From an uncultured Nitrospirales bacterium (lineage in GTDB: Bacteria > Nitrospirota > Nitrospiria > Nitrospirales > UBA8639): a DNA stretch of 64,000 nt. This document shows positions 45,605 through 52,515 of the stretch, one piece after another. The notes below the pieces were generated by a model that saw only the letters and a list, made by a program, of their open reading frames with translations, was not told the DNA's origin and searched no databases. The position numbers were made by a program, and so were the translations under genes. How positions within the stretch are numbered: position 1 is the stretch's first letter; every line of letters begins with the position of its first letter. The stretch is taken from positions 2,575,001 to 2,639,000 of the forward strand of contig OY282373.1 in the NCBI GenBank assembly GCA_958295805.1, read 5' to 3'.

Positions 45605-46102
45605 ATGGCGGAGACATACTCATTTGACGTCACGTCCACGGTCGACGTGCAGGAAGTCCGAAACGCGGTGAATCAAGTCATGAAGGAAATCGGCCAACGC
45701 TTTGACTTCAAAGGATCCAAATCCGAAGTCATCTTCAAGGATGCCGACGCCATGATAGAAGTAGCGGCAGACGACGAGTTTAAGCTTAAGGCCGTCCTTG
45801 ACATCCTCAAGGGGAAATGCGTGAAACGGAGCGTGTCGTTAAAAGCCCTCACCTACGGCAAAGTCGAGCAGGCCTTGGGGGGAACCGTCCGGCAAACCAT
45901 TACCGTGCAAAACGGTATCGTGGACGAAAAAGCCAAAGCCATCGTGAAGACAATCAAGGAGAAAAAATTCAAAGCTCAAGCACACATTCAAGGCGATCAC
46001 GTCCGCGTGCAGAGCAAAAACAAGGATGAACTGCAAGCCGTCATTGGATTTCTCAAACAACGGGACTTCGGCATCGATTTGCAGTTCGTCAATTATCGCT
46101 AG
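45605..46102 (+). CDS. YajQ-family cyclic-di-GMP-binding protein
   Basis: 165-residue two-domain ferredoxin-like protein: [39 protein letters not shown] at the N-terminus and [36 protein letters not shown]-like second half. Some YajQ proteins bind c-di-GMP and transcription factors. ATG 45605 is set by GGAGGAATA. Its 3' end overlaps the convergent lipoprotein gene by 14 bases. Confidence 0.94.
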
Positions 46103-46880
46103 GCGCCGCGACGGTCCGAAGTACTTCAGGCCACGCGGCTTTCAAACGCATCACCGCCTGATTCACGGCGTCATGACCGGCGACCGCTCGCATGACGTCA
46201 TGAGCGTCTTCTTCCTTCTCGGGATACACAGGGGGATCTTCCAGGTTTCGTCGCACCACCGGGTACACGTTGGACTCAAGGGGCATGTCCAGCCGGTCCA
46301 ACGAAGCCCAGGCATAGCCGTTCACGCGGACCAACACGTGTCCGGTGAGCACGTTGACCAACGCCAATTCGGCAAGTGCCAGGTTTTCCGCCCGATACCC
46401 TGACAGTAATCCACGTCCGATGGCTCCCGGGGAAGACCCTCGCCAGGGAAATCGTTCCGGCACCTCAATTTCGGTACTCGACAGAATGGCCATGATGAGG
46501 TAATCGACCTGATGCTCTTTTCCCCATTGAAGAGGCATAGCGAAATTCGATCTCAAGGTTGCCGGATTCGGGGCACGCGTAATCCTGACCACTTCAATGG
46601 GAACGGAATGTATCAATTGACTCTGCACGTGTTCGGTCAGCGCGGCAAAGGAAGCTTCTGAAAGTTTCGGAGCAGAATCCGGAGCCCCCGTATCATTGAG
46701 CACCCAAAGGCCGGCTGTTATCGGGCCTTCCCGGATTTCCCCAACGGGGGAAACGCGGGTCTCTTGTATCTGCTGAGGACTCAGATACACATCGAGACGG
46801 GCTTGCGGCCATCCATCCGTACAACCGACCGCACACACAAGCACCAGCCCCCCCGTCATAACCAGTCCAAACGGTCTCAT
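46089..46880 (-). CDS. Putative lipoprotein
   Basis: 263 residues with a lipobox ([17 protein letters not shown]). The mature domain has [52 protein letters not shown], and [37 protein letters not shown]. These segments resemble the second lipoprotein in the his operon in overall layout (a periplasmic activity plus description of a gene product in TolB-N-like fold), but the identity is too low to call by eye. ATG 46880 has AAGGAGG. It is divergent from the pseudo-caspase lipoprotein. Confidence 0.8.
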
Positions 46881-47088: not shown

Positions 47089-49011
47089 ATGGATGGAGTC
47101 AGAAACACTCTCCGGTTCGGAGTCCTCGTCATCGTTGTCCTCCTGAGCGTAAGCGGGTGCGGAAAATTCAGTATGCCGGACATCAGTATGCCCGATATCA
47201 GTTGGCCGGACATCAGCATGCCGAGGCTTGGATTCGGTGAAGAAGAACAGCCGAATCCCACGCTCCCCGTGTCCGTGGTCTATGCGTTTGACTCCAGCGT
47301 GACAGAGGCCACGTTGGAAGTGAACGCCTGCGGACTCCCCTACACCATCCAGAGCGGGGAACTCATCCCCCAAGCGTTCATGCAAGTGGGACACGAACAG
47401 TTTCAATCCGTCACGGCGTATGCAGGAACGGGACAAGCCGTCCAGGCATCACAAACCGCCGACGTCACGGTGCAGATCCAACTCGTGAAGCAATCCTTTC
47501 AATCCGCAACGAGCATGGCCGACGAAGAAAACGCCATCGCGTTCGTCGATCTGCAACTGCAAGCCGTGTACCTTGACGCCAATGGAAACGCATTAGCACG
47601 ACAACCGTTGAATTACAACGAACAAGTGAGCATCTGGACCCCGGCCCTGACCGGCCAATCCGTCTCCTGCACAACGGGGCGATACGATGACCTCATCGTC
47701 AGCGCCGCCATTCAACTCGCCGGACAAATGGCGAGCATCGTACCGGAATTACTCAACCAACCGGTTCCGCAACAACAGACGGCCCAAGCCGTGACTCCTC
47801 GCCAACCCCGAACCGCGGTTCGCCAATCTCAACCATCTTCGCGGCCGGCAGGCTCCACGCTGAATTCGCAGCCGGTACGGCCCACGTTGAAATTCCGCAC
47901 CATGCTGAAAGATGAAAACAACAATCTCGTGCTCGACGCCGGAGAAGTGATCTCGTTGCACGTTGAGATCACGAATACCGGCCAAACCCTTTTGGAGGGC
48001 GTGACCATTGATCTGACGGGGACCCCCGCGGTCGTGAAGGCATTCACCACTATCACCCCCATTCCCGTTTCCGTCGGCTCGTGTCAACCGGGCGAGACAA
48101 AAACCACTGAGATTCGAGGGAAAATGCCGGTCGCGGTGCCGACGCAAAACGGCGAACTGACGGTGTCGGTGAATCCCGGAGACGGATCAGCCGTCGGCTC
48201 TCACAGAATTCTTGCAACCCTTCAACCGGGAAGCGGGCACTCAACGCCACGTGCCGACGTCGGGAGGATGTCCCCCGTCCCCGGACTCAAGAAAGCGGGA
48301 AAAAAAACCGACTATTTCGCCGTTCTGGTCGGCATGGATCAGTATCGCGACACGTGGCCCGGCGCCTACCGGACCAGACGGGGCCAAGTAGCGGCTTTGA
48401 CGCAGACGCTTCAAACGACCGGATTGTTTACGGATCAAACCATTCGAATCCTGGAAGGCTCCCGAGCGACCCGAACGGATATCGAAGAAACCCTGCTCAC
48501 GTGGAGCCGGCGACGATTAGGACAAGACGGCGTGCTCATCTTCTATTTTTCAGGACAAGCCCTGAATCACCCCGAGACAGGGGAAGTGTATCTGGTGCCC
48601 TTTGAGGGCTCCCCGAACGCCACGGCCGCACGCCTGATTTCCTTGCGTGCGCTTCAACGCATTCTGGCCGAACTCGACAACCGGTTAACCCTGCTGATCC
48701 TTGACGCACCCGTGACGCCGTTGCGCGTGACCGGCGGCACCGGATTCGACGAAGCTGCGCCGACTCAATGGACCACGGGACTTCCCCAATCCGATCACAA
48801 TGGAACCCAGGTGATCCAGATTCGCAAAATCCGCAGACGTGAAACAGGCGATCGAGCCGCCGTTCTGGCCGGACTCTTCGGGCGGGCGGATGCCGATGAC
48901 AACGGCACGATCACGGTCGGAGAATTCCTGAACGACGTCAGTGCCACGACCGAGATCACCCCCATGCTCCCCGCCACCGCCCCTGAAGCCAGTATCCCCC
49001 TTTCACAATAG
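47089..49011 (+). CDS. Lipoprotein with inactive caspase-like domain and EF-hand
   Basis: 640 residues. A lipobox (VIVVLLSVSGCGKF) is followed by a short MPDIS/WPDIS repeat (about 28-44). Then come a beta-rich region, a CARDB-like domain (GEVISLHVEITNTGQTLLEGVTI) and a caspase-type fold (DYFAVLVGMDQYRD to about 560). In caspases the catalytic His and Cys stand in SGHG and DAC. Here they are SGQA (Gln490) and DAP (Pro541), so the fold is probably catalytically dead. A canonical EF-hand loop, DADDNGTITVGEF (601-613), follows near the end. It could be a calcium-responsive scaffold in the envelope. The family call is mine from motif order. Confidence 0.8.
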   Translation: MDGVRNTLRFGVLVIVVLLSVSGCGKFSMPDISMPDISWPDISMPRLGFGEEEQPNPTLPVSVVYAFDSSVTEATLEVNACGLPYTIQSGELIPQAFMQVGHEQFQSVTAYAGTGQAVQASQTADVTVQIQLVKQSFQSATSMADEENAIAFVDLQLQAVYLDANGNALARQPLNYNEQVSIWTPALTGQSVSCTTGRYDDLIVSAAIQLAGQMASIVPELLNQPVPQQQTAQAVTPRQPRTAVRQSQPSSRPAGSTLNSQPVRPTLKFRTMLKDENNNLVLDAGEVISLHVEITNTGQTLLEGVTIDLTGTPAVVKAFTTITPIPVSVGSCQPGETKTTEIRGKMPVAVPTQNGELTVSVNPGDGSAVGSHRILATLQPGSGHSTPRADVGRMSPVPGLKKAGKKTDYFAVLVGMDQYRDTWPGAYRTRRGQVAALTQTLQTTGLFTDQTIRILEGSRATRTDIEETLLTWSRRRLGQDGVLIFYFSGQALNHPETGEVYLVPFEGSPNATAARLISLRALQRILAELDNRLTLLILDAPVTPLRVTGGTGFDEAAPTQWTTGLPQSDHNGTQVIQIRKIRRRETGDRAAVLAGLFGRADADDNGTITVGEFLNDVSATTEITPMLPATAPEASIPLSQ

Positions 49012-49035: not shown

Positions 49036-49073
49036 CACTAATAGTCGACTACATTTCAATTAGTGTGTATAAT
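49036..49073 (+). promoter_or_regulatory. Candidate hicAB promoter and operator
   Basis: TATAAT (49068-49073) preceded by TCGACT (49045-49050) at 17 bases. The -35 lies in a perfect palindrome TAGTCGACTA (49042-49051), and a wider inverted repeat CACTAAT (49036-49042) / ATTAGTG (49059-49065) brackets the spacer. HicB has a C-terminal ribbon-helix-helix region that would bind such a site. Confidence 0.6.
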
Positions 49074-49080
49074 GCGCATA

Positions 49081-49275
49081 ATGAAGAGCATCGACATCAT
49101 TCGGAAACTGAAGCAGGATGGCTGGGTACTGCGGAACATGCGGGGGAGCCACCACCAGTTCACTCACCCCAAGAAGCCCGGACGGGTGACGGTCAAGCAT
49201 CCAGCCAAGGATATTCCGATGGGGACGTTGCGCAACATTTATCGACAAGCCCAATGGACATGGGAGGACCGCTGA
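49081..49275 (+). CDS. hicA: HicA-type mRNA interferase toxin
   Basis: 64-residue dsRBD-like toxin with the family pattern SIDIIRKLKQDGWVLRNMRGSHHQFTHP, where the His in GSHHQF is the catalytic residue, and VTVKHPAKDIPMGTLRNIYRQ at the end. HicA cleaves mRNAs and is neutralised by HicB. The stop overlaps the hicB ATG by one base, the usual toxin-first order. ATG 49081 is taken as start; ATG 49072 is inside the -10. Confidence 0.92.
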   Translation: MKSIDIIRKLKQDGWVLRNMRGSHHQFTHPKKPGRVTVKHPAKDIPMGTLRNIYRQAQWTWEDR

Positions 49276-49685
49276 TGCGATTTTCAGTCGTGATTCACAA
49301 AGACGAGAAGAGCGGGTACGGGGTCACCGTACCGGATCTTCCCGGCTGCTTTTCTGCCGGGGATACGCTCGAAGAGGCCATCGAATCCGTTGACGAAGCT
49401 ATTGCCTGTCATCTCGAAGGCTTACTGATGGACGGTGAACCGATCCCTGAGCAACTCCCGCTTGAAACACACCAAACCAGCGAAAGCTATCAGGACGGGA
49501 CCTGGGCACTCGCCAACGTCGACGTTTCAAAGCTGACAAGCCGGGCCAAGCGGGTCAACATTACAGTGCCGGCGCGCGTGCTGACAATCGTGGATGAGGC
49601 TGCGGCCCGAGAAGGAGAAACCCGGTCCGGGCTGCTCACCCGAGCCGCGTTGAGCTACGTGGAACGGAAATCGATGAAACCGTGA
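49275..49685 (+). CDS. hicB: HicB-type antitoxin
   Basis: 136 residues. The N-terminal partially degraded RNase H-like domain has FSVVIHKDEKSGYGVTVPDLPGCFSAGDTLEEA, which matches the HicB core. The C-terminal KRVNITVPARVLTIVDEAAAREGETRSGLLTRAALSYV is a ribbon-helix-helix DNA-binding domain, so it should both neutralise HicA and repress its operon. It forms the second cistron of hicAB. Confidence 0.93.
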   Translation: MRFSVVIHKDEKSGYGVTVPDLPGCFSAGDTLEEAIESVDEAIACHLEGLLMDGEPIPEQLPLETHQTSESYQDGTWALANVDVSKLTSRAKRVNITVPARVLTIVDEAAAREGETRSGLLTRAALSYVERKSMKP

Positions 49686-50425: not shown

Positions 50426-50767
50426 TTAGTTCCGATTTTCATAAGCTGCCATACGGGTTTCCAGCGACACCAGTCGTTCCCGGACGTGGACGGTCAAATC
50501 GACTCTCTCGTCCAGTCTCCGAAATTCCGACAGCATTTCGTTACGAAGTGAAGAAATTCTGTCGTCAAGTTTGGCGCCGTATGCTTCTATCTTGTCATCA
50601 AATTTGGCACCCTGGGCGTCGATTTTTTCATCCAGTCTGGTGCTTTGCAGATCAATTTTTTCCTCCAGTCGTTTGATTTCAATCTGAAGGCCTTTCACTT
50701 CGGATTTGATTTCACGAAGTTCGGGGACTATGAGTTCCTGGATTACCTGTTTGACGTCAACGGCCAT
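50426..50767 (-). CDS. Coiled-coil protein, copy 1
   Basis: 113 residues, nearly all heptad-like: VDVKQVIQELIVPELREIKSEVKGLQIEIKRLEEKID and several LDEKIDAQGAKFDDKI-type repeats, ending VDLTVHVRERLVSLETRMAAYENRN. It looks like a small self-associating coiled coil. ATG 50767 is shared by both copies and follows AAAGAG; the frame stays open to 50782. A second copy, shorter by about 22 residues, is at 51687. Function unknown. Confidence 0.72.
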   Translation of the reverse strand: MAVDVKQVIQELIVPELREIKSEVKGLQIEIKRLEEKIDLQSTRLDEKIDAQGAKFDDKIEAYGAKLDDRISSLRNEMLSEFRRLDERVDLTVHVRERLVSLETRMAAYENRN

Positions 50768-50782
50768 AAGCTCTTTTATCAT

Positions 50783-51686: not shown

Positions 51687-51962
51687 TTAGTTCCGATTTT
51701 CGTAAGCTGCCATAGGGGGTTTCAGCGACACCAGTCGTTCCCGGACGTGGACGGTCAAATCGACTCTCTCGTCCAGTCTCCGAAATTCTGACAGCATTTC
51801 GTTACGAAATGACGAGAGTTTGTCGTCAAACCTAGCACCTTGGGCGTCGATTTTCTCATCCAGCCGTTTGATTTCAATCTGAAGGCCTTTCACTTCGGAT
51901 TTGATTTCACGAAGTTCGGGGACTATGAGTTCCTGGATTACCTGTTTGACGTCAACGGCCAT
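51687..51962 (-). CDS. Coiled-coil protein, copy 2
   Basis: 91 residues, paralogue of the gene at 50426. Residues VDVKQVIQELIVPELREIKSEVKGLQIEIKRL are identical, one coiled repeat of about 22 residues is missing, and the end has SLKPPMAAYENRN where copy 1 has SLETRMAAYENRN. The two prolines would break the last helix, so this copy may be decaying. An upstream open frame reaches back into the REP array but is unlikely to be coding. Confidence 0.68.
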   Translation of the reverse strand: MAVDVKQVIQELIVPELREIKSEVKGLQIEIKRLDEKIDAQGARFDDKLSSFRNEMLSEFRRLDERVDLTVHVRERLVSLKPPMAAYENRN

Positions 51963-52009
51963 AAGCTCTTTTATCACGCTTATAGAAACTTCTGCAACGT
52001 CATGACACC

Positions 52010-52515
52010 GACGGTGGGGCAGCAGACGGCAAAAGGGAAGAGGCGTCATGAGATGACGCCCTACGATGCTGCGATCTTACAACTGTAGGGCAGCATCTCA
52101 TGCTGCCTGGACCGCCCGCCGCCTGGGAACAGGCGCCATGAGATGGCGCCCTACGATGCTGCGATCTTACAACTGTAGGGCAGCATCTCATGCGGCCTGG
52201 AATGGCTGCCGCTTGGGAAGAGGCGTCATGAGATGACGCCCTACGATGCTCTGATTCTACGACTGTAGGGCAGCGGCTTATGCTGTCTGGAATGGCCGCC
52301 GCCTGGAAGAGGCGCCATGAGATGGCGCCCTACGATGCTCTGATTCTACGACTGTAGGGCAGCGGCTTATGCTGCCTGGACCGGCTGCCGTTTGGAAGAA
52401 GAGGCGCCATGAGATGGCGCCCTACGATGCTGCGATCTTACAACTGTAGGGCAGCATCTCATGCTGCCTGGAACGGCCACCGCATGGGAAGAGGCGCTAT
52501 GAGATGGCGCCCTAC
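52010..52515. repeat. REP/BIME array B, about eleven palindromes
   Basis: Alternating palindromes of the same two kinds as array A, with stems GGCGTCAT/ATGACGCC, GGCGCCAT/ATGGCGCC and CAGCAT/ATGCTG, and again GTAGGG feet. Two units have GGCTTATGCT in place of ATCTCATGCT and look degraded. The end of this array and the end of array A share the flank ACATTTTGATGGGGT just before a terminator. Confidence 0.88.

Follow-up and report, generated by a model that had tools for sequence, protein, structure and literature searches.

A dyad-less caspase fold with an EF-hand loop in a lipoprotein family of the Nitrospirales

Pseudo-orthocaspases account for 858 of 9,994 bacterial orthocaspases and occur mostly in Alphaproteobacteria and Cyanobacteria (PMC6426788), while dyad conservation in the Nitrospirae stood at 57% in a survey of 2012 (PMC3501461). 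The cyanobacterial pseudo-orthocaspases are mostly YS or YN variants without other recognised domains (PMC8283722); one of them is SyOC, the knockout of which leads to a higher tolerance of oxidative stress (PMC7889975). The original prediction for the protein described here, that prokaryotic pseudo-caspases are not a described class, is thus contradicted by the literature (PMC6426788, PMC3501461, PMC7889975). A search of an open-access library yielded no description of this lipoprotein architecture or family. What is new here is that pseudo-caspase lipoproteins form a single order-wide clade, with intact Ig-caspase lipoproteins of other Nitrospirota as its sister group.

The window, i.e., the whole stretch of 64,000 nt under analysis, belongs to a genome that consists of a single contig of 2.9 Mb; the gene of interest and its features are listed in Table 1. 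Relatives of the encoded protein were present in 55 of the 59 genomes searched; the named ones are metagenome assemblies of Nitrospirales (Nitrospirota), and Nitrospira moscoviensis is one of the more distant. Searching genome contigs with the single sequence gave no matches. The wide alignment offered no conserved segment to serve as a query; a closer alignment worked. A plasmid search gave no match, querying the PDB with the sequence of the protein alone returned weak and uninformative matches only, and scans for promoters and terminators of the gene provided nothing to build on. An AlphaFold2 model generated from 49 orthologues (mean pLDDT 82) has three domains that are predicted well and is of low confidence in the linkers at residues 25–54, 226–264 and 383–403. 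As predicted, the protein is an envelope lipoprotein: its signal peptide carries a lipobox Cys (VSG-C24), relatives likewise have a signal peptide with a lipobox, and Cys24 is conserved in at least 90% of them. It is probably located on the outer-membrane side because Cys24 is not followed by Asp, a sorting rule derived from E. coli.

Table 1. Features of the pseudo-caspase lipoprotein gene and its divergent neighbour (positions in the window).
Feature	Position	Strand	Basis or remark
Divergent neighbour, lipoprotein of uncharacterised family	46089..46880	(-)	Gene-order conservation, 67 loci
Pseudo-caspase lipoprotein ORF	47089..49011	(+)	640 aa, stop included
Signal peptide and lipobox V-S-G-C24 (acylated Cys)	47089..47160	(+)	Sequence; relatives likewise
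N-domain, aa 55-225, LptE/PqiC/PelC/FlgT-like fold	47251..47763	(+)	Separate model and fold matches
Ig-like beta-sandwich, aa 265-382 (CARDB/DUF7507/NEW3 type)	47881..48234	(+)	Pfam sub-threshold, model, relatives
EF-like loop D275-E286 (DENNNLVLDAGE), start of Ig-like domain	47911..47946	(+)	Conservation in family
Pseudo-caspase domain, aa 404-640	48298..49008	(+)	Z 17.1 to MALT1; caspase_w_EACC1
SGQA, aa 488-491, Gln490 at catalytic His position	48550..48561	(+)	Sequence, alignment to homologues
DAP, aa 539-541, Pro541 at catalytic Cys position	48703..48711	(+)	Sequence, alignment to homologues
Canonical EF-hand loop DADDNGTITVGE, aa 601-612	48889..48924	(+)	Clade conservation; intact homologues too

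The caspase-type fold originally read from the sequence was recovered by structure prediction, which yields a full caspase fold for the C-terminal domain. Its best structural match is the MALT1 paracaspase (3v55; 188 residues aligned at 2.7 Å), closely followed by metacaspases, caspases and legumains; the alignment with MALT1 spans the whole domain to residue 640, p10 not being delimited within it. The NCBIfam model caspase_w_EACC1 (NF047832) matches residues 411–540 (E 4.4e-8; 32.9 bits against a curated cut-off of 140) as well as 42 of the 49 orthologues, and Peptidase_C14 is matched by 24 of 49 relatives. The window's own protein is not detected at all in a PF00656 search, so that plain Pfam annotation would miss the pseudo-caspase.

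The replacement of the catalytic residues also proved correct. In place of the His-Gly and Cys of an active C14 peptidase, the protein has Gln490-Ala491 and Pro541; it thus combines a p20 caspase-like domain with a substituted His-Cys dyad, as pseudo-orthocaspases do. A misaligned active site was considered and rejected: homologues within the order whose motifs read SGHG and LDSCFSG, and other relatives with intact YYAGHG and LDSCFSG, carry their His and Cys in the very columns occupied by Gln490 and Pro541, and the substitution is real. The catalytic His is retained by some members of the clade, none of which is in the window's genus.

The dead lipoproteins are separate from intact homologues in a first tree. 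In a wider tree including intact homologues of the phylum, they constitute one Nitrospirales-wide clade (support 100/99), joined at 98/88 by a sister group that holds the intact lipoproteins L182:8188-10014 and L183:16054-18405 from other Nitrospirota families. Rooting was at midpoint, and the direction of change depends on taking the intact state as the ancestral one. The simplest history suggested by these sequences would start from an active Ig-caspase lipoprotein that lost its Cys a single time, in the common ancestor of the Nitrospirales members, while the N-domain was exchanged and the His position altered repeatedly. One dead caspase lineage is common to a whole bacterial order, with its intact sisters identified. 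At the loci L182 and L183, several caspase genes lie side by side; many of their products are lipoproteins, and most have an intact dyad. The genome G055 (Nitrospiraceae) has 14 Peptidase_C14 matches, including several lipoproteins, some with ankyrin repeats; most have an intact dyad and an EF loop, and three occur in tandem (L064:3101-8079).

The canonical EF-hand loop originally placed at residues 601–613 does exist, with a span of 12 residues (601–612), but the proposal that it had been added to the caspase fold was not sustained. The loop fits the 12-residue pattern D-x-[DN]-x-[DN]-G-x-[IV]-x3-E, and the domain profile matches calmodulin-type EF-hands in the PDB; the Pfam model EF-hand_5 scores 11.2 bits, under its cut-off of 25.9. 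A loop of this type was found in 84 of 90 domains versus 0.45% of shuffled domains. Within the dead clade, D601 (71/72), G606 (67/71) and E612 (71/72) rank 6th, 14th and 7th in conservation amongst 223 positions, the two catalytic positions ranking 81st and 168th. The intact homologues of the order have D601 in seven and E612 in all of eight cases, the caspase domain of intact L182:8188-10014 carries such a loop (DKNGNGTIELGE), and a minority of the other intact caspases of the phylum have one at the equal position. The EF loop therefore predates the loss of the dyad, and the calcium loop survived longer than the active site. Calcium bound there may be structural, which is a simpler reading than the possible calcium gating. 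In genome G002 of the window's genus, the EF loop of the otherwise conserved protein is degenerate (L024:604-3651; AGAGDRRDVTVGD).

For the middle domain, predicted to be CARDB-like, the model does give a beta-sandwich of the Ig-like/CARDB-like kind, the name CARDB being only approximate: its score is 10.7 bits against a Pfam cut-off of 22.7, it is weakly matched by 14 of 49 relatives, and the DUF7507 match is likewise under the cut-off. The loop with EF spacing at the start of this domain is nearly invariant (D275 in 77/77, N277 in 75/77, N279 in 74/77 and E286 in 77/78).

We favour, with some reserve, the interpretation of the protein as a periplasmic lipoprotein, probably of the outer membrane, in which the dead caspase fold serves as a non-cleaving binding, scaffold or adaptor module. 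This interpretation builds on the lipobox, the predicted folds, the dead site with its retained EF loop, the single origin of the clade and the selection on the caspase domain. The N-domain would attach to a complex in the outer membrane, the Ig-like domain would act as a spacer for the module, and the pseudo-caspase would bind its protein or peptide ligand but not cleave it, whilst calcium at both loops would stabilise the fold in a structural rather than a switching role.

It is rather unlikely that the caspase domain is instead a dispensable, disappearing leftover in a protein where the N-domain and the Ig-like domain do the work. Orthologues of about 355–400 aa that keep the latter two domains and have no caspase domain do occur, in one family subgroup and at two Nitrospiraceae loci; the two Nitrospira genes (L133:5872-6942 and L134:5845-6996) end after the Ig-like domain in their normal context beside HtrA, not at contig ends. 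Such natural deletions, which represent at least two domain losses, mean that the protein does not need the module in every lineage. Within the window's own family, moreover, Gln433 stands where the pocket had its alpha-1 Asp (D in 50 of 73), and the HGLFTY motif seen in relatives has disappeared; this erosion fits a relict and leaves it uncertain whether a ligand would bind in the former substrate cleft. Against a relict, however, stands the purifying selection on the caspase domain, for which dN/dS in close pairs is mostly about 0.07–0.35 (0.50 in one pair). It is, furthermore, conserved equally with the other domains (identity to the window protein in the near group: 53% for the caspase domain, 55% for the N-domain and 52% for the Ig-like domain, with 14–33% for the linkers), and the EF loop and the core of the fold are kept order-wide.

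The N-domain leads to another, still more doubtful explanation, in which the protein belongs to an assembly at the outer membrane like those of LptE, PqiC, PelC or FlgT, involved in lipid or polysaccharide transport or ring support, and carries the pseudo-caspase as an added structural part. Modelled alone (pLDDT 85, pTM 0.83), this domain is best matched by the LptE-type lipoprotein 2r76 (Z 10.9, 129 residues, 3.5 Å), followed by FlgT (3w1e, Z 10.8), PelC (5t11, Z 10.0) and PqiC (8q2d, Z 9.9). Such tied Z values (about 10–11) show a common fold, not a function. No LptE, PqiC or PelC match was found for the N-domain in Pfam or in a profile search of the PDB, and a library of viral structures gave only weak CsgG- and protease-like matches. 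The residues Cys81 and Cys194 of the N-domain, invariant across the family, form a probable disulphide. The fold, the lipobox and the retention of the N-domain where the caspase domain is lost all suit such an assembly; on the other hand, no conserved transport genes were found adjoining the lipoprotein gene, and a likeness of fold at 5–16% identity does not establish a function. Membership in an assembly is, in any case, compatible with a scaffold role for the pseudo-caspase rather than exclusive of it.

The neighbouring lipoprotein gene (46089-46880, minus strand), the product of which has no Pfam match, lies directly upstream and divergent in 24 of the 67 loci and at most five genes away in 41 of them; it is a conserved partner in gene order, which alone is no proof of interaction. 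Some relatives (L072, L098) have two tandem copies of it. In Nitrospiraceae, a gene for an HtrA-type protease (Trypsin_2 and PDZ) is nearby in 18 loci and directly upstream in 11. Some Nitrospira encode, convergent to the lipoprotein gene, a second, separate pseudo-caspase of 468 aa with TPR repeats, in which the His is kept and the Cys changed to Pro (GHAG ... LDAPV; L043:6677-8080, L046:3029-4432, L048:6160-7563 and L120:7877-9280). In the window, the gene directly downstream (49065-49685, plus strand) specifies a HicB-like antitoxin (Pfam HicB_lk_antitox, E 1.6e-45), and two closely similar coiled-coil ORFs (118 and 120 aa) are located on the minus strand at 50426-50782 and 51687-52049.

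A dead caspase may also regulate an active one in trans, in the way that cFLIP is a decoy for caspase-8. Some relatives do encode intact caspases, and in some Nitrospira a caspase-fold gene is a convergent neighbour; nevertheless, such a decoy is very improbable here, as 12 of the 14 genomes of the window's genus have no Peptidase_C14 match. For the window's own single-contig genome, we rejected it: no second caspase-fold gene was found there, hence no active caspase is served in trans. The least credible reading, an active enzyme with unusual residues at 490 and 541, could invoke the mostly polar residues at position 490 (Q, H, N, R), but position 541 varies without pattern (P, M, S, T, A, K and others) and is Cys in no member of the lipoprotein clade.

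Returning to the binding or scaffold module, a bolder form of it is also conceivable, albeit improbable as it stands: in the Nitrospirales ancestor, an active envelope caspase would have been converted into a non-cleaving, calcium-dependent docking module on an LptE/PqiC-like platform, making the protein a calcium-responsive outer-membrane pseudo-protease adaptor. Were this true, a pseudo-caspase of the bacterial periplasm would have a defined role. The clade offers a clean system for studying what a caspase fold does once it no longer cuts, and the nitrite-oxidising Nitrospira belong to the group.

The intact Ig-caspase lipoproteins of the sister group (L182, L183) share with the dead clade the lipobox, the Ig-like domain with its EF-like loop and the caspase domain; they differ by the intact YYAGHG and LDSCFSG motifs and another N-terminal region, and the caspase domain of L183 has no canonical EF loop. 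Among families, NF047832 (EACC1-associated caspase) matches the caspase domain of the window's protein best, although this domain is without the catalytic dyad. MALT1 paracaspase, the closest solved caspase fold, likewise has an Ig domain beside its caspase domain, but it is active and eukaryotic, with 16% identity. The N-domain has its fold in common with LptE, PqiC, PelC and the middle domain of FlgT, most of which are also lipoproteins; unlike these, from which it differs by its low identity (5–16%) and the absence of a Pfam match, it is fused to Ig-like and caspase-like domains. The described pseudo-orthocaspases (PMC6426788), with SyOC (PMC7889975), are alike in being bacterial caspase folds with substituted His and Cys, in clades that suggest a retained function, whereas the proteins reported here are set apart by Q/P-type substitutions, by their lipoprotein nature, by the LptE-like and Ig-like domains, by two EF-type loops and by their occurrence in the Nitrospirales.
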